IMG/VR virus record: IMGVR_UViG_3300030380_004166
Coordinates: 1-26,916 of that record
Reading direction: 5' to 3' (one strand)
Length of the DNA: 26,916 bases
Origin: a virus
This document shows, piece by piece, positions 729-22,536 of the stretch; position 1 is the first letter of the stretch; each line of letters starts with the position of its first letter. Made by a program: the position numbers and the translations under genes. Under the pieces are notes generated by a model, which was given only the letters and a program-made list of their open reading frames with translations, was not told the DNA's origin and ran no database searches.

Positions 729-879
729 ACTTAACGCTAGGTACACAAAGGAGCAAATACGAAAGATGTTTCCAATAACTACAAAATATCTTGATAAGTT
801 TCGGGAAAGATTTCCTTCAGCACAATGCGTTTACATTAACGAAAATTTTATTGAGGTTAAAGATTACGATGACGATTAG
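670..879 (+). CDS. Small hypothetical protein (69 aa) overlapping the helicase end
   Basis: This gene starts at an ATG inside the helicase 3' end (59 bases of overlap), with a weak GGA nine bases upstream. The next in-frame ATG, at 766, follows AAGGAG at a long spacing and would leave only 37 residues, so 670 is preferred. Residues from about 18 on (TELNARYTKEQIRKMFP) look like a compact helical domain, possibly DNA-binding. I do not recognise the family. It overlaps the next gene by 11 bases, which supports translational coupling. The start is uncertain; the C-terminal half is more secure. Confidence 0.55.
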   Translation: MADLKNGQTKNALITLSITELNARYTKEQIRKMFPITTKYLDKFRERFPSAQCVYINENFIEVKDYDDD

Positions 880-1177
880 ACCACATATCATTCGTTCTAA
901 AAAACTGCGTAGGTTAGCGAATGGCAAAGCTTGTGTGATGTGTGGGATACAAGATGGAACTATTGTATTGGCTCACTCGAATTTATTAGAACATGGAAAA
1001 TGTCTGAGCGTAAAAAGTTCCGATCTGATGGGTGCATGGCTCTGTGGGAAGTGCCATTATGAGTACGATCAAGGTAAAAATATGAGCAAGGAAGAGAAAA
1101 GAGATTTTATTTTGACTGCAATTTGTAGAACCATTATGCAAATTAGTAAAGAGGAGATTATACAAATTGGAAATTGA
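869..1177 (+). CDS. DUF1364-like (YbcO-type) zinc-binding putative nuclease
   Basis: The 102-residue protein starts at the ATG at 869, inside the preceding stop region. A longer in-frame start at 791 would overlap most of the upstream gene and was not used. It carries CVMCG (C22, C25), a central LAHSN, and SSDLMGAWLCGKCH (C59, C62, H63). This pattern matches DUF1364 proteins such as E. coli DLP12 YbcO, in which Cys pairs bind zinc and His residues form an HNH-like nuclease site. Nuclease activity on recombination intermediates is inferred from the family. The family's usual neighbour, rusA, lies two genes downstream. The family call is fairly secure; the enzymatic role is not shown. Confidence 0.75.
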   Translation: MTIRPHIIRSKKLRRLANGKACVMCGIQDGTIVLAHSNLLEHGKCLSVKSSDLMGAWLCGKCHYEYDQGKNMSKEEKRDFILTAICRTIMQISKEEIIQIGN

Positions 1178-1499
1178 AGAACTTCTCCAAGAATATCGTG
1201 AGCTTATCCAACCTTATGCTCAAGCAAAAGCAAACTTAGCTTATGTAGAGGACTTTAAAAAATCCAAGCTTGCGATGTGTATGAAAAAAGCAGAGCGAGA
1301 TGGGATTAAGACAGTCTCTACACAAGAGCGAGAAGCTCGTACAGACCCAGAATATTTAAATGTGATTGATGGTTTGAAGGTAGCAGTACAAGAAGAAAGC
1401 AGACTGCGTTTCTTACTTAAGCGTGTGGAGTTGGAGATCGAGATATGGAGAACCAAACAAGCTGATAATCGGATGGAGAGGAAAGCATACAATGCTTGA
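1167..1499 (+). CDS. Conserved coiled-coil phage protein (110 aa)
   Basis: The gene starts with TTG at 1167, overlapping the previous stop. GAGGAG about ten bases upstream supports this start. The protein is highly helical and charged (ELLQEYRELI, then REARTDPEYLNVIDGL, then LRFLLKRVELEIEIWRTKQA), with heptad-like spacing that suggests a coiled coil. I recall proteins of this shape in phage recombination operons, without known activity. It sits between the DUF1364-like and RusA genes and overlaps RusA by eight bases. A role as a recombination accessory is only an inference from context. Confidence 0.7.
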   Translation: MEIEELLQEYRELIQPYAQAKANLAYVEDFKKSKLAMCMKKAERDGIKTVSTQEREARTDPEYLNVIDGLKVAVQEESRLRFLLKRVELEIEIWRTKQADNRMERKAYNA

Positions 1500-1905
1500 C
1501 TGTCTGGAAATAACAGTTCATGGCAAGGTGGTAGGAAAAGGCAGACCTCATTTCATTAGAAAAACTGGGGTAGCAATTACTCCAGCAAGGACTCGTTCAT
1601 ACGAGTCTGTGATTCGAGACTATGCTATGGCTGAGATGCAAGGCAAAGAACCTTGGGAAGGTAGGGTCAAAGCAAAGATCGTAGCTGTGCATGAGATACC
1701 TAAGAGTTGGAATAAAAAGAAGAAAGAATTAGCACAAAACAATTTAATCGCACCATCTAAACCAGATGTAGATAATGTGATAAAGATTGTGCTAGATGCA
1801 TGTAACCGTACAGTATATGTAGATGATGTACAAGTTGTGTCATGTACTGTGCAAAAAGAGTTTGGAAATAAGGCTAGATTAGAAATTAAGTTTGAAAGAT
1901 TATGA
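1492..1905 (+). CDS. rusA: RusA-family Holliday-junction resolvase
   Basis: The start is the ATG at 1492, which follows GGAGAGG and overlaps the previous stop by eight bases; an earlier in-frame ATG at 1423 lies inside the upstream gene. The 137-residue product has the RusA signature KPDVDN (residues 90-95), then K98, LDACN (101-105) and DDVQV (111-115). It also has a basic N-terminal GKGRPHF. In RusA, the aspartates coordinate the magnesium that cuts four-way junctions symmetrically. Here it would resolve recombination or replication intermediates before packaging. Length fits the family (about 120-140 residues). This is one of the most secure calls in the window. Confidence 0.93.
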   Translation: MLDCLEITVHGKVVGKGRPHFIRKTGVAITPARTRSYESVIRDYAMAEMQGKEPWEGRVKAKIVAVHEIPKSWNKKKKELAQNNLIAPSKPDVDNVIKIVLDACNRTVYVDDVQVVSCTVQKEFGNKARLEIKFERL

Positions 1906-2378
1906 ATTTCTATTCCGCAGAACAGGCAATCAAGTTTGCATTTAAGACAAGAGAAAGAAGTATTGTCAGCAAACCCAGCTTTAACTTCTTTGTCGCAGAT
2001 AAGTTTAGACACGATGATGATAAGCTAACACCGTTTGATTTCCATGCACAATCTGCAATGATATTTCGTTTTATTGATAAACAAACTGAGCTAGAAATTT
2101 TGTGGACATATTGGACATTCGGAAACAAAGATGAGAAAGAAAAAGCTTCTCGTCTTTTGGCAGATAAGGTAGATTGGAAAAGATTTAACCTAGAACGAGA
2201 TGATATATATTTAGTGTTATTATCAGATAGTGTACGCAAATGTGCAAAGAATATGAGTATTACTAATTACAAGGCATGGAAATATCGTAGGAAAGCATTA
2301 CACAATTTACAAGCATTAGAAGACAGCCTGACAAGCAAACTCTGGGATTGGTTAGAAAGAAATAATACTGCACAATAA
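1902..2378 (+). CDS. Unknown protein in the antiterminator-Q position (158 aa)
   Basis: The ATG overlaps the RusA stop (ATGA), so it is the last gene of the early operon. The N-terminal half contains KLTPFDFHAQSAMIFRF. The C-terminal half (about 105-150: SVRKCAKNMSITNYKAWKYR) resembles a helix-turn-helix like that of sigma-70 region 4. I do not recognise a named family. In lambdoid prophages such as DLP12 the order YbcO, RusA, antiterminator Q is standard, and this gene takes the Q place. A promoter-like sequence and an intrinsic terminator follow immediately. Late-gene antiterminator or transcription regulator is therefore a reasonable hypothesis from position, not a homology claim. Confidence 0.75.
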   Translation: MNFYSAEQAIKFAFKTRERSIVSKPSFNFFVADKFRHDDDKLTPFDFHAQSAMIFRFIDKQTELEILWTYWTFGNKDEKEKASRLLADKVDWKRFNLERDDIYLVLLSDSVRKCAKNMSITNYKAWKYRRKALHNLQALEDSLTSKLWDWLERNNTAQ

Positions 2379-2409
2379 AATCAAACAGGGTATAATTACT
2401 ATTAGTAAT
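2369..2409 (+). promoter_or_regulatory. Probable rightward promoter with overlapping palindromic operator
   Basis: A perfect TATAAT (2391-2396) is preceded at 16 bases by TGCACA (four of six matches to TTGACA). The last T of the -10 begins the 13-base palindrome TTACTATTAGTAA (2396-2408), which extends to 15 bases with its flanks and covers the predicted start near 2403. A protein bound there would block initiation. The same 13-mer recurs at 5610-5622. There is no gene downstream on this strand before the terminator at 2475-2545. Confidence 0.5.
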
Positions 2410-2545
2410 GTGGAAATTCTGCACTATATTTAGTGTGTCTCCTAACTCACATTGCTTTTTGTTTGTTCCTTTTTCCCAGCCCCAAATCCCTCTCCATAGT
2501 TTTAAACTACTGTATTTCTCCAAAAAGTTTTGGGGTTGGGTTTTT
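2402..2545 (+). ncRNA. Candidate short RNA of about 140 bases between promoter and terminator
   Basis: The stretch from the predicted start near 2403 to the U-run at 2541-2545 has no convincing gene: the only forward frame, from the ATG at 2408, lacks a ribosome binding site and runs through the terminator. A transcript of about 140 bases is predicted. By position, just after the Q-like gene, it parallels the lambda 6S RNA made from pR' and ended at tR'. The analogy is inferred; no expression evidence exists. Confidence 0.35.
2475..2545 (+). terminator. Rightward intrinsic terminator with large structured loop
   Basis: CCCAGCCCCAAA (2475-2486) pairs with TTTGGGGTTGGG (2529-2540) over 12 positions, with one G-U pair, and is followed directly by TTTTT (2541-2545). 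The 42-base loop holds its own inverted repeat (2497-2509). The T-run lies on the + strand side only, so it would end the early operon or the candidate short RNA. The loop is unusually large for a simple terminator. Confidence 0.55.
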
Positions 2546-2603
2546 CTTGAAGATCGTCTGGAAATATTATTGATGACAACCTTCTTCAATAAACAAGGAT
2601 TTA

Positions 2604-2635
2604 AAAGCTTTGAGGGGTTTCCCCCCCAAAGCCTT
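2604..2635 (-). terminator. Leftward terminator of the block at 2643-10422
   Basis: Read on the - strand, a 14-pair stem (including two G-U pairs) closes on a GAAA tetraloop and ends in CTTTT followed by TAAATCC. It lies eight bases beyond the last leftward stop codon. The U-tract is short but the stem is very stable. It probably ends the whole leftward block and insulates it from the opposing early operon. Confidence 0.6.
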
Positions 2636-2646
2636 GTAACCGTTAC
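2636..2646. repeat. GTAAC-C-GTTAC palindrome
   Basis: This perfect 11-base inverted repeat overlaps the stop codon of the last leftward gene and abuts the terminator stem. Its half-sites resemble those of the putative operators at 5610-5622 and 9429-9450. It may be a further binding site for the same protein, or chance; no promoter is seen beside it. Confidence 0.3.
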
Positions 2647-2876
2647 TGTATCGTTGGTATAGAATCAAGTAAGCCATCAAAAGGGTCTTGCATTGCAAGT
2701 CTTTTTTCAGCGAGCGTTTTGAGTTTTTCAATTTGCTCTTCTGAAAATTCATGGCTCAAGCTTTCAGCCATACGAATACATTCTCGTGATTTAAATGCAT
2801 CAGGTGCAGTAACAGATAAGATAAGTCCTAGTACGAACATCTTTTCGGTTGGGTTAAGGGTGGATAGCTCATTCAT
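2643..2876 (-). CDS. Small hypothetical protein (77 aa), last gene of leftward block
   Basis: The start is the ATG at 2876, overlapping the preceding stop as ATGA and following GGAGGA at good spacing; an in-frame start at 2912 has no such signal. The protein is helical and soluble (TEKMFVLGLILSVTAPDAFKSRECIRMAESL, shown here by its key residues: several alternating Leu/Ile and Glu/Lys). The C-terminal part EEQIEKLKTLAEKRL is probably a helix. No family is recognised. It is the distal gene before the strong leftward terminator. Confidence 0.7.
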   Translation of the reverse strand: MNELSTLNPTEKMFVLGLILSVTAPDAFKSRECIRMAESLSHEFSEEQIEKLKTLAEKRLAMQDPFDGLLDSIPTIQ

Positions 2877-3160
2877 TTTAAGTCCTCCATATTTTGTTTT
2901 TGTGACCACCAATCAGAATGTTTATGAACAATATTTTCGGCTTGCTCAAGTGCTTCTTGCGGAGTGTAAAAATCTGCATCGCAAGACCAATAAATCATCT
3001 TGCCATTTAAGCTTATGAAAAACTGATACATAACTTCTTTCGATGATTCTTTTTCGTGGATTTGAATTACGCAGTTTCGATATTTTTTAATAGGCAAACC
3101 TAAGTTTCGTTTAGATATTTTAGTCTTTAACTGTAATTCGTTTAGATAATCGTTACGCAT
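2873..3160 (-). CDS. Hypothetical protein (95 aa)
   Basis: The start ATG at 3160 follows GGAGGAG and overlaps the upstream gene by eight bases; the stop overlaps the downstream start. The protein starts with a basic region (ELQLKTKISKRNLGLP), followed by what looks like a small beta-rich domain (YQFFISLNGKMIYWSCDADFYTPQEAL). The FISLNG...DADFYTPQEALEQA pattern resembles short phage proteins that fold as a sheet plus a helix. No function can be assigned. Confidence 0.72.
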   Translation of the reverse strand: MRNDYLNELQLKTKISKRNLGLPIKKYRNCVIQIHEKESSKEVMYQFFISLNGKMIYWSCDADFYTPQEALEQAENIVHKHSDWWSQKQNMEDLK

Positions 3161-3797
3161 TACGACTCCTCCGTTTGATGAATGCTTCTAACTTATATTC
3201 CTTTCCGTTAAAGTTTTGGATTGCTCCATTTGGGTACTTGCCACTTTTTAAAACTGCACGAGGAGTTATAAACCCAAAAGGTATTGGACAAAGTTCAGGT
3301 GGAAATACAATCAAGTGATATTGATTTGCTGTGTTTAGTAGTCGATATTCTGCTGGATAAATCTGAATAGCTTCAGAATCATCTCCGCAAAGAATATTTT
3401 TGATAGTTTGAAAGTCTTGCCAATCATTACAAGGTTGTTTGTCATGTCTCTTAATAGAAAGATAAGTCATCTTTCCTTTATGTTCATCTAAATGAATTAT
3501 TTCATCTGACTTTTTATCTCCCTTGTGATAGAAAACAACATACACATCGTTTGTATAAAGGGGGCAAGTATAACTACTTAAAGCTTCTTGTCGTAAATGT
3601 TCTTTTACTTCTTCAGGGTCATCGTCTTTGACTACAGGATGGTAATGACACAATTGTAGGTAATTCTCTTCGACAAGACGGTTAATGTGTTGGTCGTCAG
3701 GTTTGTCACGTTCTTCCAAACGTAACATTCCACCTTGCGGAAAAACTATCTCTTTGTTTTTGAGTTTTTTTTTCCGTTGTTTGTGAGCGTAACTCAT
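3153..3797 (-). CDS. Conserved phage protein of unknown function (214 aa, DUF7694-like)
   Basis: The start follows AAAGGAG and overlaps the upstream stop as ATGA. The N-terminus is strongly basic (KQRKKKLKNKE). The central and C-terminal part reads WQDFQTIKNILCGDD, then IQIYPAEYRLLNTANQYHL, then PPELCPIPFGF. This is a motif set I recall from a conserved phage family, tentatively DUF7694, found in many unrelated phages. The YPAE and NQYHL motifs are the strongest link. No catalytic residues are known to me. The family assignment is from memory and needs a profile search. Confidence 0.72.
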   Translation of the reverse strand: MSYAHKQRKKKLKNKEIVFPQGGMLRLEERDKPDDQHINRLVEENYLQLCHYHPVVKDDDPEEVKEHLRQEALSSYTCPLYTNDVYVVFYHKGDKKSDEIIHLDEHKGKMTYLSIKRHDKQPCNDWQDFQTIKNILCGDDSEAIQIYPAEYRLLNTANQYHLIVFPPELCPIPFGFITPRAVLKSGKYPNGAIQNFNGKEYKLEAFIKRRSRNA

Positions 3798-3991
3798 TGG
3801 CTCTCCTTTCTTTCAAAGTGAATTCCTTCTTCTTCTAACTCTTCTTCGTTTGCAACTTTTACCCCAGCATCATATAAAAAAGTAAAAGCTTCTGTTTCAT
3901 TAGGAAATACTAATACTTGATTGTCTTTATCAAGTAGGTACTCTTTGCCGTTTAAGCCGATGCCATTTATGTATCTGTATATGCTAATCAT
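3794..3991 (-). CDS. Small hypothetical protein (65 aa)
   Basis: The start chosen is the ATG at 3991, six bases after AAAGGA; an upstream in-frame TTG at 4006 would place that ribosome binding site inside the gene. The protein begins MISIYRYINGIGLNGKEYLL and continues with a VLVFPNETEAFTFL motif. This suggests a small beta-strand protein with one helix, and the tail is very acidic. The start overlaps the preceding gene's stop region, and the stop overlaps the next start. No family is recognised. Confidence 0.68.
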   Translation of the reverse strand: MISIYRYINGIGLNGKEYLLDKDNQVLVFPNETEAFTFLYDAGVKVANEEELEEEGIHFERKESQ

Positions 3992-4160
3992 CGTTAATCC
4001 TTTCAATTAAAAGATTTAGAATACGGAGTTGATAATCATCAGGGTTGTGTACCGCTCTACCGTGCCGTTTTGCTGTGTGATATTTGACATGGAAACGAAG
4101 GGAGCGCATAAGCACTCCCTCTTGTAACCAATACCAAAATCCATCTATTTCAATTGCCAT
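3984..4160 (-). CDS. Small hypothetical protein (58 aa), short gene in the packed operon
   Basis: This frame fills the otherwise empty 150 bases between two genes. The ATG at 4160 shares TAATG with the upstream stop and follows AAAGGA; the TAG stop overlaps the next gene's start by eight bases. The product begins MAIEIDGFWYWLQEGVLM and continues RSLRFHVKYHTAKRHGR, with a HNPDDYQLRILNLLIE end, so aromatic then basic then helical. Packing and ribosome binding site make it convincing despite its length. The function is unknown. Confidence 0.7.
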   Translation of the reverse strand: MAIEIDGFWYWLQEGVLMRSLRFHVKYHTAKRHGRAVHNPDDYQLRILNLLIERINDD

Positions 4161-4399
4161 TAATCATCCTTTCGTTTTCGTAAGTCTTGATGGTTTCTGT
4201 CAGCGATATATACATTAAGCCTTTGATTGACTAACCAAAATATTTCTTGGTAGTCAAGGTCATTTAGAATATGACCACGAACTGTTAAGTCTTCAACGAC
4301 ATAACGAGCAAACGAAGTCATTTCATCAGCAACTTGTTGATATATCTTGAACCGAGGAACAGGCTTTTGTTGAATGATTTTTCTTTTGTAATTTTTCAT
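4160..4399 (-). CDS. Hypothetical protein (79 aa)
   Basis: The start is overlapped by the preceding stop (ATGA) and follows AAAGGAA. The protein has basic ends (KNYKRKIIQQK and DLRKRKDD) and a central helical stretch (VADEMTSFARYVVEDL) before LDYQEIFWLVNQRL. No family or motif is recognised. The charged ends and small size would suit a nucleic-acid or protein-binding adaptor, but nothing demonstrates that. Confidence 0.7.
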   Translation of the reverse strand: MKNYKRKIIQQKPVPRFKIYQQVADEMTSFARYVVEDLTVRGHILNDLDYQEIFWLVNQRLNVYIADRNHQDLRKRKDD

Positions 4400-4602
4400 T
4401 GAGTTCCTTTGTTTCGATTTGCATAATTGAGAATGGCATCTTTCAATGACACGATGATGTAGTCATACACATCTTCAGGAATTGTTCCCAACTCTTTGCC
4501 CATGTCTAGCCATTCCAATATTGCGTAGTATTCCTGTGGCTCGTCATCGGCATAGCTGTCGATGAGAGCCAAAAGAATTATTTGAACAAGGGAATCGTTC
4601 AT
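4396..4602 (-). CDS. Small acidic hypothetical protein (68 aa)
   Basis: The ATG shares TAATG with the DUF932 stop, and no strong ribosome binding site is seen, so translation is probably coupled to DUF932. The protein is acidic and helical (MNDSLVQIILLALIDSYADD, EEYYAILEWLDMG-like central part, then VYDYIIVSLKDAI). It is unrecognised. Small acidic phage proteins next to early genes are often inhibitors of host factors, but this is speculation. Confidence 0.68.
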   Translation of the reverse strand: MNDSLVQIILLALIDSYADDEPQEYYAILEWLDMGKELGTIPEDVYDYIIVSLKDAILNYANRNKGTQ

Positions 4603-5561
4603 TACGATATCAATTCAACATCAGAAATATTGGACAGTTTGTTTGTCCACCATTCGTGACGAAGAGCAGAACGAACTTTCTGTCTACGCTCCTCTGCTTT
4701 GTGAACTTCATCACTAGCATTGGTTGTGTAGTGCGTTGAAAAATCAGTCAACACATTGTACGTTCTCCAAAGAGTGTCGCCATCTTTAGGGTACTTAGCC
4801 CAACGATGTTCACATCTTTCGAGCTCTCGTTCATTGACTTCTCTTTTGTGTCCAGCAGTTCTGCCACAAATAGTTTGCTTGAAGAATTCAAACGCATCAT
4901 CTTTGGCAACAGGAATGCTTTTTGTTTCACGAAGAAGTTCAGCATGATTTGCAAGAACATTTGGGAATCTACTAGCAGACAATGCAAGCTTCACAGGGTC
5001 AGCATTTTTAGTATGCTTTTCCATGATGTACGTTTCATGCGAAGTACCCCAAACACAACCGTTGTAACAGAATGAACGAACAAGTTCTGCTGTAATAGAA
5101 CGAGCACTACTTGCATTGTGAGAGTCACGCAAACGAATCAACATAAACGATTCTTCGCCAAGCTGTTTGTTAAAGTTGTGAGCTGGTAAAGATATCCAGA
5201 CCTCAAGCGATGAATCATTCCAGTTTGTTTTGAACTCGACTTTCATATCAGTTAAGTTCAAATCCGTTTCAGCAATACAAGATATGTATTTGCTGTACAA
5301 GTCATGGAAGTTATGAGTCTTGTAAGCATTTGAAACAATCTGAATTGGTTGATTAACCATCGGGTTCCAAAGCATAACGTGTTGCTTATCTTCAGTCATC
5401 ACTTGGTTTATGTCTGGAGATGATATCGGATGAGACACAGGCTGATAGTTCAACCGCTCTGGAAGCGGTGGAAACATATCAAGCCTACTGTTAGTGCTAG
5501 TGATAATAGCTGGTACTTCAGGTTCGTCAGAACGAACAGGTAGAACGGAAGTAAAATCCAT
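4602..5561 (-). CDS. DUF932 (TIGR03299-like) phage/plasmid protein, 319 aa
   Basis: The start follows AAGGAG at seven bases. The order of features fits DUF932: a variable N-terminus with a beta-rich ligand-like region (NQPIQIVSNAYKTHNF), then LRDSHNASSARSITAELVRSFCYNGCVWG (the family's sNS-to-R..C.NG core), then an ELERCEHRW helix region, and an LWRTYNVLTDFSTHYT segment near the end. DUF932 proteins are common on phages and plasmids; their biochemical role is unknown, with proposed links to DNA maintenance or recombination. It is the first gene after the palindromic promoter site at 5595-5631. Confidence 0.82.
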   Translation of the reverse strand: MDFTSVLPVRSDEPEVPAIITSTNSRLDMFPPLPERLNYQPVSHPISSPDINQVMTEDKQHVMLWNPMVNQPIQIVSNAYKTHNFHDLYSKYISCIAETDLNLTDMKVEFKTNWNDSSLEVWISLPAHNFNKQLGEESFMLIRLRDSHNASSARSITAELVRSFCYNGCVWGTSHETYIMEKHTKNADPVKLALSASRFPNVLANHAELLRETKSIPVAKDDAFEFFKQTICGRTAGHKREVNERELERCEHRWAKYPKDGDTLWRTYNVLTDFSTHYTTNASDEVHKAEERRQKVRSALRHEWWTNKLSNISDVELIS

Positions 5562-5594
5562 ATTGATTCTCCTTATTAAAGATTACTACAGTTA

Positions 5595-5631
5595 ATTATA
5601 CACTAAATGTTACTATTAGTAATAATTAGTG
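5595..5631 (-). promoter_or_regulatory. Leftward promoter with nested palindrome in place of the -35
   Basis: On the - strand, a perfect TATAAT (5600 to 5595) lies 27-33 bases before the DUF932 start codon. No good -35 box is present. Instead TTACTATTAGTAA (5610-5622) covers the -35 region, nested symmetrically inside CACTAA (5601-5606) and TTAGTG (5626-5631) with three-base spacers on each side. An activator site replacing the -35, or a repressor operator, are both possible. The site overlaps the stop codon of the gp88-like gene. Confidence 0.55.
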
Positions 5632-6294
5632 CAAAAGATAATAGATGTGTTTCACATCTGTGTCCCAACATGCACGACATGTACCGCACTTGCCGTATGC
5701 TGGATGCTCTTTTGGTAAAGCTTTCGACATGCATTTAACAACTGATTTACTTGTCTTAGCTTTCTCAAAAAAAGGTTTGCTCAAAACAGAACTTGTCGTA
5801 GGTAACAGTTTTGTTTTGGACTCACTAGAATTAATAAATTGGTTAGATATTCTAATGATTAGGTTGGAAGGAATGGTGTCCGTCTTAAGAAACTTGGTAA
5901 TAATATTTCGTTCTTGTGTCGGTAACCAGAATTGAACTTGAGGTAATCGCTTTGCAATCTCAACAATCTTTTGCAAGTGATCAACACTTTGCAAATCGCC
6001 AGAGTCAAACCATCTGAAGTAATTCAACGAATGATAGACCATCAAGTACACCATAGCATCTACCCACTCAGGGTTAGAGATAGCTTCGAGTCTACGTTGA
6101 TGACATTGATTGACGTTGTCGTACAAGTAGTTGCCACGCATTGCGAAACATTTACTACATGTACTGTTTGGAAGTTTAGATAGTTTGGAACCAGTAATAC
6201 ATTGAGATGATGAGATACCCCAAGTTTTTGTTGGCATCTTGGAAGCATGTCCAAGGTCAGAGCCAACTATTTGCTTGGCAGTATTGTAATTCAT
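5626..6294 (-). CDS. Phage gp88-family cysteine-rich protein (222 aa)
   Basis: The sequence has the gp88-family layout: an N-terminal region with ISSSQCITGSKLSKLPNSTCSKCFAMRGNY, then FRWFDSGDLQS, then LPQVQFWLPTQE, a long helical middle, and a C-terminal CGTCRACWD. Clustered cysteines (at least eight in the mature protein) suggest zinc or iron-sulphur binding. The family is widespread in phages, mostly of unknown function. The ribosome binding site AGAAGGAG lies 12 bases from this ATG, longer than usual, and is ideally spaced for a three-codon mini-ORF (6291-6302) whose stop overlaps this start. The family name is from memory, the motif match good. Confidence 0.75.
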   Translation of the reverse strand: MNYNTAKQIVGSDLGHASKMPTKTWGISSSQCITGSKLSKLPNSTCSKCFAMRGNYLYDNVNQCHQRRLEAISNPEWVDAMVYLMVYHSLNYFRWFDSGDLQSVDHLQKIVEIAKRLPQVQFWLPTQERNIITKFLKTDTIPSNLIIRISNQFINSSESKTKLLPTTSSVLSKPFFEKAKTSKSVVKCMSKALPKEHPAYGKCGTCRACWDTDVKHIYYLLH

Positions 6295-6350
6295 TTGGTC
6301 ATAAGTCTCCTTCTAAGTTGTGAACGTAATGTTTTTAATGCTATCGTTAT

Positions 6351-6929
6351 TCATACAGTATCTCCTAGTTTTTCTGGATGCCAGACTATACTGTTTATAG
6401 TCTCGTAAGTTAATGGAATCTCCCAATCATAGGCTTCGGTTTCTGTCATACTATGACGTTGCATTTGTTTCAAATGCTCACGCACCCATTGTAAGTAGGA
6501 TGAGTCTATGTCTTCGCTGGTAGCAAATAACTTTAAACCATAGCGTGTTTTTAGAAACCAGTTACTAAAACCATGTGGCAAATTAGGAACGATAAGCACA
6601 TCTGTGATTGATAAAGGTCGCATAGGACTATGTACTATAACTTGAGGATGTTGATAGTTTTTACGTTGTTCTTCACTTCCATGCATTGTTACTTCTGCTT
6701 TTAGGATACGTTTAGTACGGTTAGTAAGACCCATGTACTCTTTATTACTTCCAAACGCAGAAGGAGAAAAGATATCAAAAACATCAGATATACTATTAAC
6801 ATGAGCAGATGCTACATGGCGATACGAACCGTTAGCAAGATGGAGTGTAACTTCTGAGATAGATGTCTGTAGACCTTCAAACAAATCACGGTCTACTTGA
6901 CATACATAAACAAGTTGTAATGGTTTCAT
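6351..6929 (-). CDS. Hypothetical protein (192 aa)
   Basis: The start follows AGGAG at six bases, within the 25-base repeat that also carries the upstream stop codon. The protein has no signal peptide or membrane segment. Recognisable blocks are HLANGSYRHVASAHVNSISDVFDIF, MGLTNRTKRILKAEVTMHG, and VLIVPNLPHGFSNWFLKTRYG, all shown only by their shortest distinctive parts (LANGSYRHVA, NRTKRILKAEV, NLPHGFSNWFLK). I do not recognise a family. A compact globular domain is likely. It precedes the gp88-family gene by 57 bases. Confidence 0.7.
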   Translation of the reverse strand: MKPLQLVYVCQVDRDLFEGLQTSISEVTLHLANGSYRHVASAHVNSISDVFDIFSPSAFGSNKEYMGLTNRTKRILKAEVTMHGSEEQRKNYQHPQVIVHSPMRPLSITDVLIVPNLPHGFSNWFLKTRYGLKLFATSEDIDSSYLQWVREHLKQMQRHSMTETEAYDWEIPLTYETINSIVWHPEKLGDTV

Positions 6930-6934
6930 AACTT

Positions 6935-6959
6935 CTCCTAGTCAAGTGATGTGTTAATT
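6935..6959. repeat. 25-base direct repeat, copy 1 (stop codon plus ribosome binding site module)
   Basis: It is identical over 25 bases to 7219-7243. On the - strand it encodes the C-terminal residues INTSLD, the TAG stop, and the AGGAG ribosome binding site of the next gene. It lies at the junction between the 91-aa and 192-aa genes. Confidence 0.9.
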
Positions 6960-7213
6960 AGATGTGTTTCCGAATGAAAGTCCAACTTTCTAATTTCAAA
7001 TTCAAAATTTTCATCAGCAAATTTCATAACGTATTTTCTTTTTAATTTTGTTAAACTAGTATCAGAAGGTCGTTTATTTTTTGGAAAGTCAGCACTAATA
7101 TGTTTATCTAGCTCTTTAATAAGTCCAACTGCTGTTGTAAAGATTAAGTTCCTATACATATTGTGTGTATCATTTTGTCTGTAGATTACTAACTGATATA
7201 CAAAAGTTTCCAT
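6938..7213 (-). CDS. Hypothetical protein (91 aa) ending in INTSLD
   Basis: The start follows AGGAG at seven bases. The body (METFVYQLVIYRQND, LIFTTAVGLIKELDKHI) reads as a strand-helix-strand small fold, and the C-terminal part is KYVMKFADENFEFEIRKLDF. No family is recognised. The last six residues and stop are shared with the adjacent 83-aa protein through the 25-base repeat, although the two proteins otherwise show no obvious similarity. Confidence 0.7.
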   Translation of the reverse strand: METFVYQLVIYRQNDTHNMYRNLIFTTAVGLIKELDKHISADFPKNKRPSDTSLTKLKRKYVMKFADENFEFEIRKLDFHSETHLINTSLD

Positions 7214-7218
7214 GTAAG

Positions 7219-7243
7219 CTCCTAGTCAAGTGATGTGTTAATT
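7219..7243. repeat. 25-base direct repeat, copy 2
   Basis: It is identical to 6935-6959, 284 bases away. It covers the end of the 83-aa gene (INTSLD, TAG) and the AGGAG that serves the 91-aa gene. The arrangement suggests that one gene was inserted by recombination at the shared junction. Confidence 0.9.
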
Positions 7244-7473
7244 GCTACGTTGAATTTGTCTCTAGCGATAATACGTCTAAGCTGGTCAGGACTAATTGTC
7301 TTGTTGTCGTTGCCAAATAAATTCATCCATATTTGTGTAGCCATGTTTGCTGGGTAATAACGCTTCGTTCCATATGTGACTCGTTGTACAAACGTGAGTG
7401 TTTCAGCATGTGGATTGCTAGACTCCGTATAATTGTCTAGCTTAATAGGGTTTTTGAACGCTGTAATGTTCAT
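7222..7473 (-). CDS. Hypothetical protein (83 aa) ending in INTSLD
   Basis: The start follows CAGGAG at seven bases and lies 17 bases from the hairpin-tail element at 7490-7536. The protein has a TFVQRVTYGTKRYYPANMATQ segment and an SPDQLRRIIARDKFNVA helix. It is soluble, slightly basic and unrecognised. The C-terminal residues are shared with the next gene through the 25-base repeat. Confidence 0.7.
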   Translation of the reverse strand: MNITAFKNPIKLDNYTESSNPHAETLTFVQRVTYGTKRYYPANMATQIWMNLFGNDNKTISPDQLRRIIARDKFNVAINTSLD

Positions 7474-7489
7474 CGTAATCTCCTGTGAA

Positions 7490-7536
7490 TTGAATAGAAA
7501 AAAGAAGAGCCCTCCCCTTCGTGGATAAGGAGAGGG
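7490..7536 (-). terminator. Hairpin plus CTTTTTTCTATT element 1
   Basis: On the - strand, CCCTCTCCTT pairs with AAGGGGAGGG (10 pairs, one G-U, 7-base loop; 7510-7536) and is followed by a U-rich tail ending TTTTTTCTATT. It is a textbook intrinsic terminator. However, it sits only 17 bases upstream of the next start codon, with no space for a new promoter, so read-through or antitermination is implied. Confidence 0.75.
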
Positions 7537-7549
7537 ATGGTTGATATTG

Positions 7550-7753
7550 TTATAAAATTTGAATAGGTTTGTAACCGCTTTCGCTTTGCTTAATACGAGT
7601 GAAGACTACAAGTTGATTGCATCTATCACAACATCTCGCATCAGGATTGCCCTCAACATAGAATGGGTCAGGGTTGTTACCCCTGTCCCACCCAGTTTCT
7701 TTGTTAACCAATGACTGATTACAAAAACAACAAGTGTTATCAAGATTGTTCAT
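7550..7753 (-). CDS. Small zinc-ribbon-like phage protein (67 aa)
   Basis: The start used is the ATG at 7753, seven bases after AGAGGAG; an earlier in-frame ATG at 7777 lacks this. The protein has TCCFCNQSL, then GWDRGNNPDPFYVEG, then ARCCDRCNQLVV. The two cysteine pairs and the GNNPDP motif match a small phage family that I recall as widespread, with a probable structural zinc site. It overlaps the end of the 265-aa gene by 14 bases. The function is unknown. Confidence 0.78.
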   Translation of the reverse strand: MNNLDNTCCFCNQSLVNKETGWDRGNNPDPFYVEGNPDARCCDRCNQLVVFTRIKQSESGYKPIQIL

Positions 7754-8537
7754 TTGCTGTCTCCTCTGAATTAACATCTGCTGTTTCTTCTGGAGCTTTG
7801 ATACCTAACTCTTCTGGAGTTGGTACACATCCCATGTTATTGAGCACACGAAAAGCGTTGTAATACTTACTGTCCATGTCTTCAACATAGTAATGAGGGT
7901 TGTCAGAAAACAAACAGCTTTCAAGTTGTCTGTAAAATGCATCTTCGCCTGTGTCTTCTGCTCTTGTTGGATACAAATGAAATTCTGGAATACCGCTTGG
8001 TGGAACTTGAAGAACCCACATTTTATCTGCACCGTATGGTTCAGTTAGCTCGCCATTCCTAGCTAATCTTTCGATGTACCTGTATTGCATACCCAGTTCA
8101 GCAAGGTCGAAATATTTCTTTTCAGCGTTTTCTGCTCTTTCGTTTAGCGTGCTAATCACTTCAGGTAACTTAGGATTCAATGCAAGATCGACAAGACTTT
8201 TCAATGAATCAACTTGTGTTTGAAGTGTATTAACTTTTTCGGTAAGGCTTTCAACTTCGGTTGGAAGTTCATCCCATTCCCTCGGAAGATTGTTTTCAAC
8301 AACTCTTTCAACGATGTATTCGATGTCTGATTCATAATCGTCCATGTCAAAAGTGTCACTAATTTTACTAGCAAGATTGTCGTCCATCCATGTTTCGATA
8401 TGGTCAGAAGTATAATTTTCCATATACGTTTCTACTCTGCCATCAATGGTGTCTTTCAACTCTTCTTCGAGTTGAGGTTTGATTGCAAGCATAATGTCAT
8501 GCGATGGAATGGTTAACTCTTGTCCTTCAACAGTCAT
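7740..8537 (-). CDS. Acidic coiled-coil hypothetical protein (265 aa)
   Basis: The start follows AAGGAG at eight bases. The N-terminal 90 residues are very acidic and helical (LEEELKDTIDGRVE, YESDIEYIVERVVE). Residues 90-150 form a likely coiled coil (PTEVESLTEKVNTLQTQVDSL). The rest is globular, with YGADKMWVLQVPPSGIP, and a disordered acidic tail (APEETADVNSEETANEQ). Acidic, coiled proteins of this kind may act as DNA mimics or scaffolds, but that is speculative here. No family is recognised. Confidence 0.72.
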   Translation of the reverse strand: MTVEGQELTIPSHDIMLAIKPQLEEELKDTIDGRVETYMENYTSDHIETWMDDNLASKISDTFDMDDYESDIEYIVERVVENNLPREWDELPTEVESLTEKVNTLQTQVDSLKSLVDLALNPKLPEVISTLNERAENAEKKYFDLAELGMQYRYIERLARNGELTEPYGADKMWVLQVPPSGIPEFHLYPTRAEDTGEDAFYRQLESCLFSDNPHYYVEDMDSKYYNAFRVLNNMGCVPTPEELGIKAPEETADVNSEETANEQS

Positions 8538-8561
8538 AATGTTCTCCTTGTCAATGAAGGT

Positions 8562-8610
8562 TAATAGAAAAAAGGGATATTCCTCCCTGTATATAAAGAG
8601 AGAGGAATAT
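8562..8610 (-). terminator. Hairpin plus CTTTTTTCTATT element 2
   Basis: On the - strand, ATATTCCTCTC pairs with GGGAGGAATAT (11 pairs; 8577-8610, 12-base loop), followed by CCCTTTTTTCTATT. The tail matches the other copies. The next start codon (8537) lies about 25 bases beyond, leaving no room for a promoter. Confidence 0.7.
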
Positions 8611-8617
8611 ATGTGGG

Positions 8618-8941
8618 TTAATTAGGAACACGAGCGTAATTTCTGATGGGAGAATCTACACCATCGTCAACTTCGATAATTTTTATGTCAAAGTTATCGT
8701 GTGTAGTGATTACTCCATCTTTGAAATGACCAATAAGTTTTATAAACTTTGGTGCATCGCAATCTTCTTCAAGATAGAAAAAGCCGTCATTGATGTAGCT
8801 GTAAGTTGAAGGTTCGAAGCCGACAGCTAAGACAAAAGAAGCTGGTACTTGTAACCAAGAATGTCCTGAGTCTGAATGCCAACATAAACGGACTGGATAA
8901 GGTACGTCTGATAATGACTTTTCTTTTATAATAGTTTTCAT
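8618..8941 (-). CDS. Conserved phage/plasmid protein with SGHSWL and YLEEDCDA motifs (107 aa)
   Basis: The start follows AAGGAG at eight bases. Characteristic pieces are WHSDSGHSWLQVP, YSYINDGFFYLEEDCDAPKF, and a hydrophobic C-terminal strand region. The D(S/P)GH-WL...YSY...YLEEDCDA pattern is one I recall from a conserved small family spread over phages and plasmids. Its function is unknown to me, and the conserved acidic EEDCD cluster could be a binding site. The family call rests on motif memory. Confidence 0.75.
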   Translation of the reverse strand: MKTIIKEKSLSDVPYPVRLCWHSDSGHSWLQVPASFVLAVGFEPSTYSYINDGFFYLEEDCDAPKFIKLIGHFKDGVITTHDNFDIKIIEVDDGVDSPIRNYARVPN

Positions 8942-8969
8942 TGGTTCTCCTTATTGTGAGTGTTAATAA

Positions 8970-9314
8970 TTAATCAGTCCAAAAACCTTGACCTTCATGG
9001 CTTTCAGGTGCTTTGTTTTCCCAAGGGGTTTCAGGATTGGTTACTAAGTTAGGACTTAAATGAGGTTTGTCTGAATGGGCAAGATTTATACCGAGATTTC
9101 TTGCTGTGTTTTCATTTGACTCAATGCCATTCATCTCTGCAACTACTACATAAAAGTCTTTACCGCCAAAGACTCCATAGCCTTCGTAATTGTCTTCTTT
9201 GTACTTGTTGCCTTTGTTGTCGATTAAGTAAACTGTTTGTACCTTTCTGCCTTTTGCAAATCGGTTCCAAATTACTTTGCGTGTGTCGTTTGTGTACCAA
9301 CTAAAAAAACCCAT
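8970..9314 (-). CDS. Conserved phage protein with MGFFSW start (114 aa)
   Basis: The start follows TTTAGGAG at nine bases. The beginning MGFFSWYTNDTRKVIW, the block YKEDNYEGYGVFGGKDFYVVVAEMN (key parts YEGYG, FGGKD), and the end PWENKAPESHEGQGFW match a family found in many phages of unrelated morphology. Its role is unknown. It is the first gene downstream of the putative promoter/operator region at 9408-9450, with a leader of about 90 bases. Confidence 0.78.
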   Translation of the reverse strand: MGFFSWYTNDTRKVIWNRFAKGRKVQTVYLIDNKGNKYKEDNYEGYGVFGGKDFYVVVAEMNGIESNENTARNLGINLAHSDKPHLSPNLVTNPETPWENKAPESHEGQGFWTD

Positions 9315-9407
9315 GATTGTTTCTCCTAAATGTTATATGAGTGTTAATAAAAAACTTCTGGAACTATTTGTTGTGTGTAACTGGTACTACAGATAACAAT
9401 GGCAATT

Positions 9408-9450
9408 AGCATACAAGTGTTAGCAATAGTAACATGTTACCGTTAGTAAC
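9408..9450 (-). promoter_or_regulatory. GTTAC/GTAAC operator cluster upstream of the MGFFSW gene
   Basis: The 12-base perfect palindrome GTAACATGTTAC (9429-9440) overlaps a second inverted pair GTTAC...GTAAC (9436-9450). On the - strand, TTACTAACGGTAACAT shares 14 of 16 positions with the promoter site at 5610. A possible -10 TATGCT (9413 to 9408) lies downstream, as in that promoter, but matches consensus at only four of six positions. A common regulator is inferred. Confidence 0.45.
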
Positions 9451-9481
9451 AAAAAGTGTTTGGAAATAACGCTTATGTCTA

Positions 9482-9543
9482 CCCGAAGTTTTTGAACTTG
9501 GGTGTTCCTCGACAGGCTGGGCATTGAGCCCAACCCATCGAGG
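9482..9543. other. Two strong hairpins without U-tract
   Basis: A 16-pair stem (9507-9543, allowing three G-U pairs, loop ATTGA) is flanked by a smaller hairpin (9482-9502, AAGTT/AACTT closed by CCC/GGG with one mismatch). Neither is followed by a T-run on either strand, so an intrinsic terminator is unlikely. It could be mRNA 3'-end protection, a processing site or an initiation structure. Together with 9408-9450 it makes up the gene-free stretch 9315-9549. Confidence 0.6.
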
Positions 9544-9549
9544 GAGTAA

Positions 9550-10092
9550 CTACACCTCTGTATCGCTAGCATCATCGTTTGTGATGCGAGGAAGCTGGAA
9601 GCCATCGACAATCTGTGCTAGTTTGCCTTTGGATTCTTCGCCAGACAGCGTTGCAAGCAAGTCAATCAATGCTTGTCTTGTCAGCGTTGTTTTGCCGACA
9701 GCAAGAACGAGATGCTTGAGCAATGCTTCGGTATCTGCATCTTCATTGCCCATAGCTTGCACAGTCTTTACGACATAAAGCGCAAGTTGCATGTTACGTC
9801 TGGTTTCAGCTTCGTGAAACAAAGGTCTGCCGTTAGTCTTTCTGCCGACAGGATGAGTTTTGACACCCATGTTGTTGGCACGAATTGCAAGACCGCCAGC
9901 AGATTCGGTGTTGATACCAATCTCACGATTAGTAAGCTGTTCCGAAGCTTGAACTGATGTAAGCTTTCTAGCTTCATCAGGTGTTGCACATAAGCCGAGA
10001 TTGACCAACACCTCAACCTGACGGTCGGTTGCTGGACGAACTGGAGTAGCCTGTTTCTGTTGTGGCTGAACAACTTCAAGTGTGTCAAACAT
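9550..10092 (-). CDS. Hypothetical protein (180 aa)
   Basis: The start follows AAGGAG at seven bases. After a proline/glutamine-rich N-terminus comes PATDRQVEVLVNLGLCATPDEARKLTSVQASEQL (key parts PATDRQ, ARKLTSVQAS), a short helical segment I have seen in several phage proteins without known role. The rest is helical (RNMQLALYVVKTVQAMG, TTLTRQALIDLLATL) and ends in an acidic disordered tail. Base composition is noticeably richer in GC than neighbouring leftward genes. The function is unknown. Confidence 0.72.
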   Translation of the reverse strand: MFDTLEVVQPQQKQATPVRPATDRQVEVLVNLGLCATPDEARKLTSVQASEQLTNREIGINTESAGGLAIRANNMGVKTHPVGRKTNGRPLFHEAETRRNMQLALYVVKTVQAMGNEDADTEALLKHLVLAVGKTTLTRQALIDLLATLSGEESKGKLAQIVDGFQLPRITNDDASDTEV

Positions 10093-10119
10093 TAGATTCT
10101 CCTTGTGATGTTGACGTTA

Positions 10120-10165
10120 ATAGAAAAAAGAGATACTCCCTCCTTCGCAAGTTAAGGAGGAAGTA
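10120..10165 (-). terminator. Hairpin plus CTTTTTTCTATT element 3
   Basis: On the - strand, TACTTCCTCCTT pairs with AAGGAGGGAGTA (12 pairs, one G-U; 10134-10165, 8-base loop), followed by TCTCTTTTTTCTATT. The next start codon is about 30 bases further, again without room for a promoter. Confidence 0.75.
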
Positions 10166-10170
10166 GTTGA

Positions 10171-10422
10171 TTAATAGCGAGTGATAGAACGCAAACGCTT
10201 TGAGAACTTGTAGTGCTTGATGCATTCCTGTATGTGATGCCCAAAGTCTGCTAGAAACCAAGGTGCAAGGATGGACGGAAAGCATAAGAGGAACATGACA
10301 ACGTAGTGCCAGATAGCGAATAGTTCTAATGAATACCAGCCGTATGCTAAGAAGGCTGTTAATGGACATACGATTGTTATCCAAAGAAAATCGATGATTG
10401 CGTAGAAGATGTTGTGTTGCAT
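10171..10422 (-). CDS. Small integral membrane protein (83 aa)
   Basis: The start follows GGAG at nine bases. Two hydrophobic segments are visible: FLWITIVCPLTAFLAYGW (about residues 12-29) and AIWHYVVMFLLCFPSILAPWF (about 36-57). A basic C-terminal tail follows (HYKFSKRLRS). Two-helix membrane topology with a cytoplasmic basic tail is likely. It is the first gene of the leftward block. Roles such as superinfection exclusion or host-membrane modification are possible but not supported by motif. Confidence 0.72.
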   Translation of the reverse strand: MQHNIFYAIIDFLWITIVCPLTAFLAYGWYSLELFAIWHYVVMFLLCFPSILAPWFLADFGHHIQECIKHYKFSKRLRSITRY

Positions 10423-10711: not shown

Positions 10712-10948
10712 ATGAATGTAGTCGCACCTGTTTTAACTTTTATGGCTGGCATAGTACTGACGTATATGCTGATGACCAAATACGATGCAAAGATGTTTGA
10801 TATGTGGGAAACCGCTTATAAGGTTGGTAAATCTGATGGGTACGATATTGCGAAGGCTCAGTTCAAGATGAACAGAGACAAGCTGGAGTACACCTGTGCA
10901 TTCTTATGGGCAGATGAATCTGATTTGCAAAAGAATAGGAATAAGTAG
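10712..10948 (+). CDS. Small membrane-anchored protein (78 aa), first late gene
   Basis: The start follows GAAAGGAA at good spacing. Residues 4-22 (VAPVLTFMAGIVLTYMLM) form one transmembrane or signal-anchor helix; the rest is soluble and helical (YKVGKSDGYDIAKAQFKM). A membrane-anchored protein at the head of a late operon could belong to lysis (spanin-like) or host interaction, but no lipobox or typical spanin pattern is seen. The family is unknown. Confidence 0.7.
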   Translation: MNVVAPVLTFMAGIVLTYMLMTKYDAKMFDMWETAYKVGKSDGYDIAKAQFKMNRDKLEYTCAFLWADESDLQKNRNK

Positions 10949-10950
10949 AA

Positions 10951-11214
10951 ATGGCTAGAAGATTAAATACAAGACATAGTGAGTTGTGTAGACAGAAGAT
11001 ACAGGTCACTCAATTGATTAATCGTTTGATGGGTCACATTGAGGGCAAGGTAGACTTGTCCAACTCTCAGGTTAACTCAATCAAGATATTGCTTGATAAG
11101 TCTTTGCCGAGCTTATCGGATGTTAAGACGGAGCATGTATCACAAGGTATTACATTTAACTTAAAGCTAGATGAAACTGTGACGGATGTCGTTAATAGAG
11201 AAGAGGAACAATAA
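10951..11214 (+). CDS. Probable terminase small subunit (87 aa)
   Basis: It begins two bases after the previous stop and overlaps the next start as TAATG. The protein is basic and helical at the N-terminus (ARRLNTRHSELCRQKIQVTQLINRL), followed by DLSNSQVNSIKILLDKSLPSL. This pattern, with Q-V-x-x-x-x-LLDK-LP, is one I recall from small phage proteins encoded just before the large terminase. Recognition of packaging sites is inferred from that context. It is shorter than most TerS proteins, so an alternative DNA-binding role remains open. Confidence 0.6.
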   Translation: MARRLNTRHSELCRQKIQVTQLINRLMGHIEGKVDLSNSQVNSIKILLDKSLPSLSDVKTEHVSQGITFNLKLDETVTDVVNREEEQ

Positions 11215-11501
11215 TGCCAAAGCCAATACCGTCTGGAGCCAAAGGGGCTGGAATTAGAAAACTAAAAGAAGTACGTCCTGATGTTGCTGAGAAGATGGGG
11301 TACAAGAAAGGTGGCAAGGTTAAGGCGAAATCAAAAGTTAACTCTGCTGGCAACTATACGAAGCCAGCACTTAGAAAGAGACTGTATCAACAAATTTTAA
11401 ATTCGAACTCCTATGGCACGGCTAGTGGGAAGTGGTCGGCTCGGAAAGCCCAAGCCCTAGCGAGACTCTATAAACAAAAAGGTGGGGGCTATCGTGATTA
11501 G
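11214..11501 (+). CDS. Lysine-rich phage protein with WSARKAQ motif (95 aa)
   Basis: The start overlaps the previous stop (TAATG) after GAGGAA. A basic glycine-rich N-terminus precedes the conserved-looking C-terminal half: NYTKPALRKRLYQQILN, then GKWSARKAQALARLYKQKGGGYRD. I recall this C-terminal block from many aquatic phage proteins of unknown function, usually near terminase genes. It may bind DNA, given its charge. No enzyme motif is visible. Confidence 0.72.
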   Translation: MPKPIPSGAKGAGIRKLKEVRPDVAEKMGYKKGGKVKAKSKVNSAGNYTKPALRKRLYQQILNSNSYGTASGKWSARKAQALARLYKQKGGGYRD

Positions 11502-11518
11502 TCGACATAATTTTGGAA

Positions 11519-11697
11519 TGAAAAAAGCCTTTCAAAAAAATTTTTTAAAAAAGCTAATGGAAAGAAAACAAAAGAGTTTAAAGGATTATATAAATACGCA
11601 AATAGCAAAAATGAATAGGGAAAAAGATGGCACTCAAGAAATCTCAGAAAAGCCTGAAGAAGTGGGGAAAGCAAAAGTGGAGAACAAAGTCAGGTAA
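11519..11697 (+). CDS. Possible small lysine-rich protein (59 aa), doubtful
   Basis: This frame would fill the 125 bases between two well-supported genes. It starts MKKAFQKNFLKKLMERKQKS, has only a weak GGA before the ATG, and overlaps the following DUF5872-like gene by 71 bases in another frame. An A/T homopolymer block (A7T6A6, 11534-11552) lies within it. It may equally be untranslated leader. It is listed because the gap would otherwise be empty. Confidence 0.3.
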
Positions 11698-11869
11698 GAA
11701 ATCTAGTGAGACTGGAGAAAGGTATTTGCCTGAGAAAGCCATTAAAGCTCTTACAGCGAAAGAGTATGCTCAGACGACAAAAGCAAAAAGAGAAGACACA
11801 AAGAAGGGTAAGCAACATTCAAAGCAACCTAAGAAAATTGCTAAGAAGACCAGAAGGTATAGAGCATGA
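11627..11869 (+). CDS. DUF5872-like small basic protein (80 aa)
   Basis: The start follows AGGGAAAAAG, and the stop overlaps the terminase start (ATGA). The protein is very lysine-rich with SLKKWGKQKWRTKSGKKSS, ETGERYLPEKAIKALTAKEYA, and KGKQHSKQPKKIAKKTRRYR. The KW..Q.W.TKSGK and RYLP motifs match the family I know as DUF5872, common in aquatic phage and environmental sequences. The function is unknown. Strong positive charge suggests nucleic-acid contact during packaging, an inference. Confidence 0.78.
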   Translation: MALKKSQKSLKKWGKQKWRTKSGKKSSETGERYLPEKAIKALTAKEYAQTTKAKREDTKKGKQHSKQPKKIAKKTRRYRA

Positions 11870-13296: not shown

Positions 13297-13448
13297 TAGA
13301 CCCGAACCTTCCGTCTATTCAAAAGTATGTGGTTGTTGATAAATCAAACTGCGTGAAGTTAATTACTTCTAATAGAACAATTGCAAAGTGGTATCAAGGC
13401 ATGTTCGACATTGGAAGATTTAAAGAAGTAAAAATTTTTTTAAAATAA
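13293..13448 (+). CDS. Small hypothetical protein (51 aa) after terminase
   Basis: The start ATG at 13293 overlaps the terminase stop (ATGA); an in-frame ATG at 13218 lies within terminase and was not used. The product MIDPNLPSIQKYVVVDKSNC... continues to YQGMFDIGRFKEVKIF. It looks like a small alpha/beta domain with no recognised motif. The stop lies inside an 18-base AT-rich repeat copy. Coupled translation supports it as real. Confidence 0.6.
   Translation: MIDPNLPSIQKYVVVDKSNCVKLITSNRTIAKWYQGMFDIGRFKEVKIFLK
13430..13447. repeat. 18-base AT repeat, copy 1 (AAAAATTTTTTTAAAATA)
   Basis: It is identical to 13647-13664. It lies about five bases before the AAGGA ribosome binding site of the 13460 gene. 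It could be bent DNA, a weak upstream promoter element, or a ribosome-recruiting U-rich leader. Confidence 0.85.
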
Positions 13449-13459
13449 AAGGATTAACG

Positions 13460-13636
13460 ATGAAAGGTGTTAAACATTACTTAAAGTCTGGTAAAGAGTG
13501 GAAAGGTAAAAAACACAAGATGCCCAACGGTCAGCTTCATACAGGAGCATCACATAGTGCAACTTCGCAAAGGTTGTTTCATAAAAAAGAATTATCAAAA
13601 AGTGTTCAGGCTAAATTAAAAAAGGCTTCAGCGTGA
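13460..13636 (+). CDS. Small phage protein with MKGVKHYLK and HKMPNG motifs (58 aa)
   Basis: ATG follows AAAAGGA at good spacing. The sequence MKGVKHYLKSGKEWKGKKHK then MPNGQLHTGASHSATSQRLF then HKKELSKSVQ resembles a very common tiny protein of aquatic phages with the pattern MKGVKHY.K.G....HKM..G..H.G..H...S..L. Its function is unknown. Histidine pairs plus lysines could bind metal or nucleic acid. It lies between two 18-base AT repeats. Confidence 0.75.
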   Translation: MKGVKHYLKSGKEWKGKKHKMPNGQLHTGASHSATSQRLFHKKELSKSVQAKLKKASA

Positions 13637-13646
13637 ATGATGATAT

Positions 13647-13664
13647 AAAAATTTTTTTAAAATA
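13647..13664. repeat. 18-base AT repeat, copy 2 (AAAAATTTTTTTAAAATA)
   Basis: It is identical to 13430-13447 and likewise sits directly before a ribosome binding site (AGGAG, 13664-13668) of a small lysine-rich gene. Confidence 0.85.
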
Positions 13665-13674
13665 GGAGAATCAA

Positions 13675-13833
13675 ATGAGAAAAGCTAAAGGTACAAGTGT
13701 AATGAAGAAAAAAGATGACGATAAAAAGAAAAAGCAAAAGCTTATGGGCGGTGGTAGAGTCGGTCAAAAGAGTATGCAGAAAAAAGGGTATTCAAAAGGA
13801 GGAGCGATTAATCGCATGGGTCGAATGAAATAA
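13675..13833 (+). CDS. Lysine/glycine-rich very basic protein (52 aa)
   Basis: ATG follows AGGAG at seven bases, and the stop overlaps the next ATG as TAATG. The product is dominated by Lys and Gly (MKKKDDDKKKKQKLMGGGRV, then KKGYSKGGAINRMGRMK). Tiny proteins of this composition are frequent in aquatic phage structural regions; none is characterised to my knowledge. DNA condensation or capsid decoration are conceivable. Confidence 0.7.
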   Translation: MRKAKGTSVMKKKDDDKKKKQKLMGGGRVGQKSMQKKGYSKGGAINRMGRMK

Positions 13834-14671: not shown

Positions 14672-14674
14672 GTC

Positions 14675-15178: not shown

Positions 15179-15180
15179 TT

Positions 15181-22535: not shown

Positions 22536-22536
22536 A

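Follow-up and report, generated by a model that had tools for sequence, protein, structure and literature searches.

The 158-residue protein p158, encoded at positions 1902 to 2378 (plus strand) of an uncultivated virus fragment, very probably acts as a Q-like processive antiterminator, in the manner of AlpA from Pseudomonas aeruginosa. By predicted fold and by the architecture of the cis elements behind its gene, the protein has the testable features of the Q-like class. The fragment (26.9 kb; IMGVR_UViG_3300030380_004166, positions 1 to 26,916) was analyzed over its whole length of 26,916 nt, and this entire stretch is referred to here as the window. AlpA is a Q-like processive antiterminator of the alpB promoter (PDB 7XYA, 7XYB); it needs the sequence GGGACG at -25 to -20, between the -35 and the -10, and its -10-like pause element is found at -1 to +5, 24 bp from GGGACG when counted start to start (PMC9371919, PMC7969949). 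21Q, lambdaQ, 82Q and AlpA show no mutual sequence similarity (PMC9371919, PMC7969949).

A preliminary description of this DNA had guessed that the 158-residue protein contains a helix-turn-helix, and had proposed comparing its structure with those of Q-type antiterminators. The AlphaFold2 model of p158, built on an alignment of 26 sequences (mean pLDDT 87, pTM 0.77), comprised eight helices, and a helix-turn-helix was indeed present at the C-terminus (helices 111-118 and 122-157). Confidence was low at about residues 21-42, the ring region; as modeled, p158 has the Q-like organization of an N-terminal ring-forming segment and a C-terminal helix-turn-helix. Among solved structures AlpA came first, in both the loading and the loaded complex (Foldseek E 1.5e-3, probability 1.00), and the match covered nearly the whole chain (VIA-align Z 12.0 over 149 residues, with the next chain at Z 6.8). 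The model also matched a viral protein that bears the name antitermination protein Q (probability 0.97), and 21Q structures were absent among the structural matches listed.

At the sequence level, p158 had no family match in Pfam, PHROGs or NCBIfam, and none of the 26 members of its family matched a profile of the Q families in these collections. AlpA was absent from a profile search of PDB sequences up to E 10, and the fold match was not accompanied by detectable sequence similarity. Weak matches of the family to DPS-like proteins, Cas14 and IS1595 were judged to be noise, and a tblastn search of a cultured-phage collection with four family members gave no match. Several points count against the antiterminator reading: the Foldseek E value to AlpA is only 1.5e-3, sequence similarity to known antiterminators was not found, the -35 of the downstream promoter could not be recognized in L002, the far groups of the family lack a clear binding site, and the hexamer motif described below was picked only after the sequences had been seen. 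The earlier suggestion that p158 might represent a new antiterminator family is supported by the AlpA fold match together with conserved cis elements in the register of AlpA, from which its activity is inferred. Judged by its model, p158 most likely forms a new family of a known functional class, outside the named sequence families. It has been foreseen that structure-based annotation would reveal further Q-like antiterminators (PMC9371919), and the p158 family would be such a case, discovered in uncultivated aquatic phages together with the sites that it likely targets.

Three of the 26 family members gave a weak match to Sigma70_r4_2 (best E 0.015), and among the structural matches AlpA was followed by structures of sigma region 4 (Z up to 6.8). 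Together with a conserved hexamer situated within the promoter behind p158, these matches would also fit a sigma-region-4-like activator or repressor of that downstream promoter, with the terminator merely closing the early operon and a short RNA. Such a role is improbable, since the AlpA match spans the whole chain, including an N-terminal part for which a plain DNA-binding protein would have no use, and since both the terminator and the -10-like element at its fixed distance of 24 bp would be left unexplained.

By searching with the neighboring helicase, 80 viral loci were collected. About half of these (approximately 40) contained homologs of p158, which were 29-84% identical to the protein of the window and were encoded downstream of the same genes, usually at the end of the rightward early operon. 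For these roughly 40 phage genes, which had no annotation, and for the promoter that follows them, the present analysis offers a likely role. In the window, the early operon forms the left end and runs from a DnaB-like helicase through p158, all on the plus strand. The C-terminal part of the helicase (15-728; PF03796 E 3.6e-10, phrog_239 E 6e-34) is the first gene seen, and is followed by a small ORF, a YbcO-like HNH nuclease (869-1177; PF07102 E 4.5e-10, phrog_131 E 1.1e-24), a conserved 110-residue ORF without family match (1167-1499), and the RusA Holliday junction resolvase (about 1492-1905, start uncertain; PF05866 E 1.8e-32), whose gene overlaps that of p158 in the sequence ATGA. The preliminary description had likened this arrangement to the lambdoid order YbcO-RusA-Q ahead of the late promoter. 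The order itself was borne out, except that the 110-residue ORF intervenes between YbcO and RusA. This ORF was kept in most related loci, even in those without a detected RusA, and RusA was not detected in many of the relatives. The operon of locus L002 was 74% identical in DNA to that of the window. Between the same two phages, protein identity was 97% for the terminase (11866-13296) and 83% for the helicase and p158, a gap that may reflect an exchange of modules.

Directly behind p158, a TATAAT and an intrinsic terminator had been described as bounding a unit of about 140 nt, and this unit was recovered here. On the plus strand, TATAAT is located at 2391-2396, with a predicted transcription start near 2403, and the two arms of the terminator hairpin are at 2475-2486 and 2529-2540. 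L002 likewise has the promoter, the start region, the hairpin and the terminator, as do lineages that are more distant. A weak -35 (TGCACA, 2369-2374) lies 16 bp upstream of TATAAT in the window, and was not recognizable in L002. Between the -35 and the -10 is CAAACA (2382-2387), which is conserved in position and sequence among the near lineages and is predicted to be the binding element of p158. A -10-like element, TAATGT (2406-2411), follows CAAACA at a start-to-start distance of 24 bp and is predicted to cause a sigma-dependent pause. The promoter region of the window was in the top 3-4% of equal-length segments by its match to sigma70, a consensus that may not be that of the host. Over 26 loci, not all of them independent, the regions around the p158 stop codon outranked random segments for promoter score (KS p 6e-8).

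The hexamer CAAACA followed the p158 stop codon in the window, L002, L008, L011, L012, L016 and L055, and GGGACA was found there in L007 and L009. Both forms were placed in register by MAFFT unaided, and in the near lineages the spacing from the hexamer to a TANNNT element was exactly 24 bp, the same as in the promoter of AlpA. Positions T1, A2 and T6 of this pause-like element were invariant in an eight-row alignment. As in the Q class, the predicted binding element of the near lineages thus lies between the -35 and the -10, and a -10-like element stands at a fixed distance from it. A promoter scan blind to the motif put a -10 between the hexamer and the pause element in the window, L008 (TTTACA-17-TATAGT), L016 (TTGATA-17-TATATT), L055 and L009. 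Among the far p158 groups, good promoters were present in some and a clear binding site in none; scoring of these groups gave TGGACA-17-TACAAT in L037. Locus L072, which also belongs to a far group, has a perfect consensus promoter (TTGACA-17-TATAAT, 8576-8605) immediately after the stop codon of p158, and an intrinsic terminator comes next. In L065, L069, L070 and L073, the final stretch of the p158 gene (approximately 30 nt) contains TCAAACA, with CATAAT, TAGAAT or TAGATT following at a distance of 17-18 nt. The binding element may be inside the coding sequence in these four loci, or a conserved peptide could be the cause.

In 384,701 bases of sequence from p158 loci, the motif CAAACA-N18-TANNNT occurred seven times on the plus strand, each time 4-30 nt past the stop codon of p158, and was present in 0.05-0.25% of shuffles. 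The 7-mer TCAAACA was common to four lineages, a common length reached in none of 2000 shuffles. Because the motif had been picked after the sequences had been seen, a scan of the viral collection is the stronger test. A longer form of the motif matched seven times among 2.9 million viral contigs, and all seven matches were p158 loci, including a new one (L112, close to L055). The same collection scanned with the GGGACA form returned L009 and one new contig, L114, in which p158 is again encoded upstream of the site. With such scans yielding p158 loci only, with the fixed spacing, and with TCAAACA shared by four lineages, it is extremely improbable that TATAAT and the hairpin arose by chance in a 3' untranslated region that is rich in AT and has an ordinary operon terminator, even though the first 6 kb of the window contained no more promoter-like sites than shuffles would (17 found, 17.9 expected). 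An exact search of bacterial genomes with TTCTGCACTATATTTAGTG gave two chance-like matches, both within apparent host coding genes. An array of operator sites was also considered and rejected: CACTANNNNTAGTG occurs once in the window when up to one mismatch is allowed, which is about the chance expectation, and there was therefore no sign of a multi-site repressor.

In AlpA, Lys138 sits in the major groove of the binding element (PMC9371919, PMC7969949). If the conserved Arg112 of p158 is equivalent to Arg128 of AlpA, a correspondence derived from spacing and not from a residue-level structural alignment, then Asn122 (residue +10) falls on Lys138. Lineages with CAAACA have Asn-Tyr-Lys/Arg at this recognition position, and L007 and L009, which have GGGACA, carry Lys. 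The pairing of GGGACA with Lys was predicted, and was then seen in p158 of the newly found L114, where the helix reads Ser-Lys-Asn-Arg-Ala-Trp. The Lys-type proteins form one clade, indicating one specificity change within the p158 family and not several. CAAACA was not visible in L037-type loci, the proteins of which have Asn-Tyr-Lys, and in L046, which has Lys, GGGACA was absent from the 96 nt before the contig end. The pairing provides a testable rule, in which Asn goes with CAAACA, and Lys with GGGACA, a sequence close to the GGGACG of AlpA.

According to the antiterminator reading, p158 would bind CAAACA at 2382-2387 with its helix-turn-helix, using the beginning of helix 8, and polymerase started near 2403 would halt as sigma region 2 grips TAATGT at 2406-2411. 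Without p158, transcription would stop at about 2545 and give a short structured RNA; with p158, polymerase would read on rightward past the terminator. The intrinsic terminator (2475-2545, plus strand) has a 12-bp stem and a U-tract at 2541-2545 (TTTTTC). Matching terminators were found in other near lineages, so that the window and its relatives have an intrinsic terminator soon after the promoter, as is the case for the Q class. The transcript of about 140 nt folded better than all of 200 shuffles (z -4.7), and that of L002 reached a z of -8.6. Its leader hairpin (2404-2456) is composed of an outer stem (2404-2413/2447-2456) and an inner hairpin (2421-2426/2431-2436) with the core CACTA-TATT-TAGTG (2422-2435). 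In the near lineages, CACTA-NATN-TAGTG is enclosed by outer stems of differing sequence, and starts 16-18 nt past the start of the pause element; the full-length minimum-energy folds of L008, L011 and L012 depart from this arrangement. The five core pairs never vary, and the two pairs that flank them change on both sides (7 cells; one of 500 shuffles was as high). The invariant core and symmetric flanks are compatible with an RNA hairpin, but also with a palindrome in the DNA that a protein recognizes. The unit had also been likened to that of a 6S RNA under Q control. The architecture is that of the lambda promoter-terminator unit, whereas an Rfam search gave no match above threshold, including to bacterial 6S RNA.

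The strong structure of the two transcripts, the invariant hairpin with its covarying flanks, and CTCCTT-like stretches in the structured leader would also be consistent with a unit that chiefly yields a small phage RNA regulating translation, p158 tuning only the length of this RNA. Terminated late-promoter transcripts can gain a second life as small RNAs, for which StxS is a precedent. This explanation is rather unlikely, however, because the RNA sequence outside the CACTA hairpin is unconserved between lineages, whereas the protein, the binding site and the pause element are conserved.

The likeness of p158 to AlpA comprises the near whole-chain match of an eight-helix model with a C-terminal helix-turn-helix, the hexamer between the -35 and the -10 with 24 bp to a -10-like element and an intrinsic terminator downstream, and, in one clade, GGGACA (GGGACG in AlpA) along with Lys at the spacing equivalent of Lys138. 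Unlike AlpA, to which it has no detectable sequence similarity, p158 is phage-borne and ends an early operon; the hexamer of the window is CAAACA, and the presumed target genes are beyond a leftward block. With the Q proteins of lambda, 21 and 82 (PMC6606751), p158 shares a gene immediately ahead of a late promoter, a promoter, pause-like element and terminator giving a short RNA, and a helix-turn-helix with a predicted ring, but it matches none of the Q families in Pfam, PHROGs or NCBIfam. 21Q has two direct-repeat half sites (PMC6606751), in contrast to the single hexamer at p158 loci. GafZ of the Caulobacter gene transfer agents is likewise an antiterminator with a sigma-like helix-turn-helix and a proposed binding element between the -10 and the -35, and switches on late phage-like genes (PMC11150451). 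It acts together with GafY and IHF, and was reported to have no similarity to known antiterminators (PMC11150451), whereas p158 matches AlpA. The put RNA of HK022 resembles the p158 leaders in that a phage transcript has leader hairpins with a possible action on polymerase, but put serves early genes and works without any phage protein (PMC9378689).

Beyond the terminator, the window contains a leftward gene block (2643-10422, minus strand; DUF7694, DUF932, GP88 and mostly unknown genes), which ends in a terminator-like 14-bp hairpin (2600-2640, minus strand; -25.5 kcal/mol, z -4.7). In lambda, the DNA past the terminator is co-directional, whereas here it is convergent, as the preliminary description had stated, the genes between about 2.65 and 10.4 kb pointing leftward. 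The rightward late operon follows (10712-26915, plus strand), with terminase at 11866, a holin-like gene at 15181, portal/adaptor at 16406, major head at 20152, and tail genes. The order of early operon, p158, promoter-terminator unit, leftward block, and terminase with late genes was the same in the window, L002, L009, L016 and L055, and in all five the terminase and late genes are on the p158 strand. At the late-gene starts of five phages no sigma70-like promoter was found above background (0.38-0.85 of random segments scored as well), and that of the window had 0 sigma70-like sites, although promoters of the host may be of another type. The CAAACA/GGGACA site occurred once on the late strand of each examined stretch, behind p158. 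The layout suggests that late transcription starts at the p158 promoter and traverses the leftward block, since no clear promoter is seen at the late-gene start; the read-through transcript would cross the block antisense before arriving at the late genes (10.7 kb). Its position at the end of the early operon would make p158 an early-to-late switch.

Alternatively, p158 may antiterminate while the late genes use their own promoter near 10.4-10.7 kb, and read-through would then only silence the leftward block or have a minor role. The block and its terminator do lie between the unit and the late genes, and promoters of the host may differ from sigma70 sites, but the absence of above-background sigma70-like sites at the late-gene starts of five phages and the single binding site on the late strand of each stretch make a separate late promoter somewhat unlikely. 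An extended form of the antiterminator reading can be put forward tentatively, in which an AlpA-fold antiterminator loads behind its own gene, polymerase runs for kilobases antisense and silences the leftward block before reaching the late genes, and the CACTA hairpin is a further cis element that serves loading or resistance to termination. To our knowledge, own-gene loading and an antisense run of several kilobases have not been described together in a late switch. If true, the layout would be a natural instance of antitermination over a long antisense stretch.

Some further features of these loci were observed. The late region of the window includes a ferredoxin-like auxiliary gene (13833-14504; phrog_3704, E 1.1e-28). 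CTCCTT pyrimidine stretches, complementary to the Shine-Dalgarno sequence, recur before the terminator in many p158 leaders (for example L059, L069, L037 and L016). A second hairpin of the leader, of nearly invariant sequence (TTTGTAGCGAA), is absent from the window, L002 and L055, and is located just before the terminator in L008 (9275-9300), L009 (4430-4450), L016 (4975-5000) and L114 (745-770); its stem is GGTT/AACC in L008 and L016, and GCTT/AAGC in L009.
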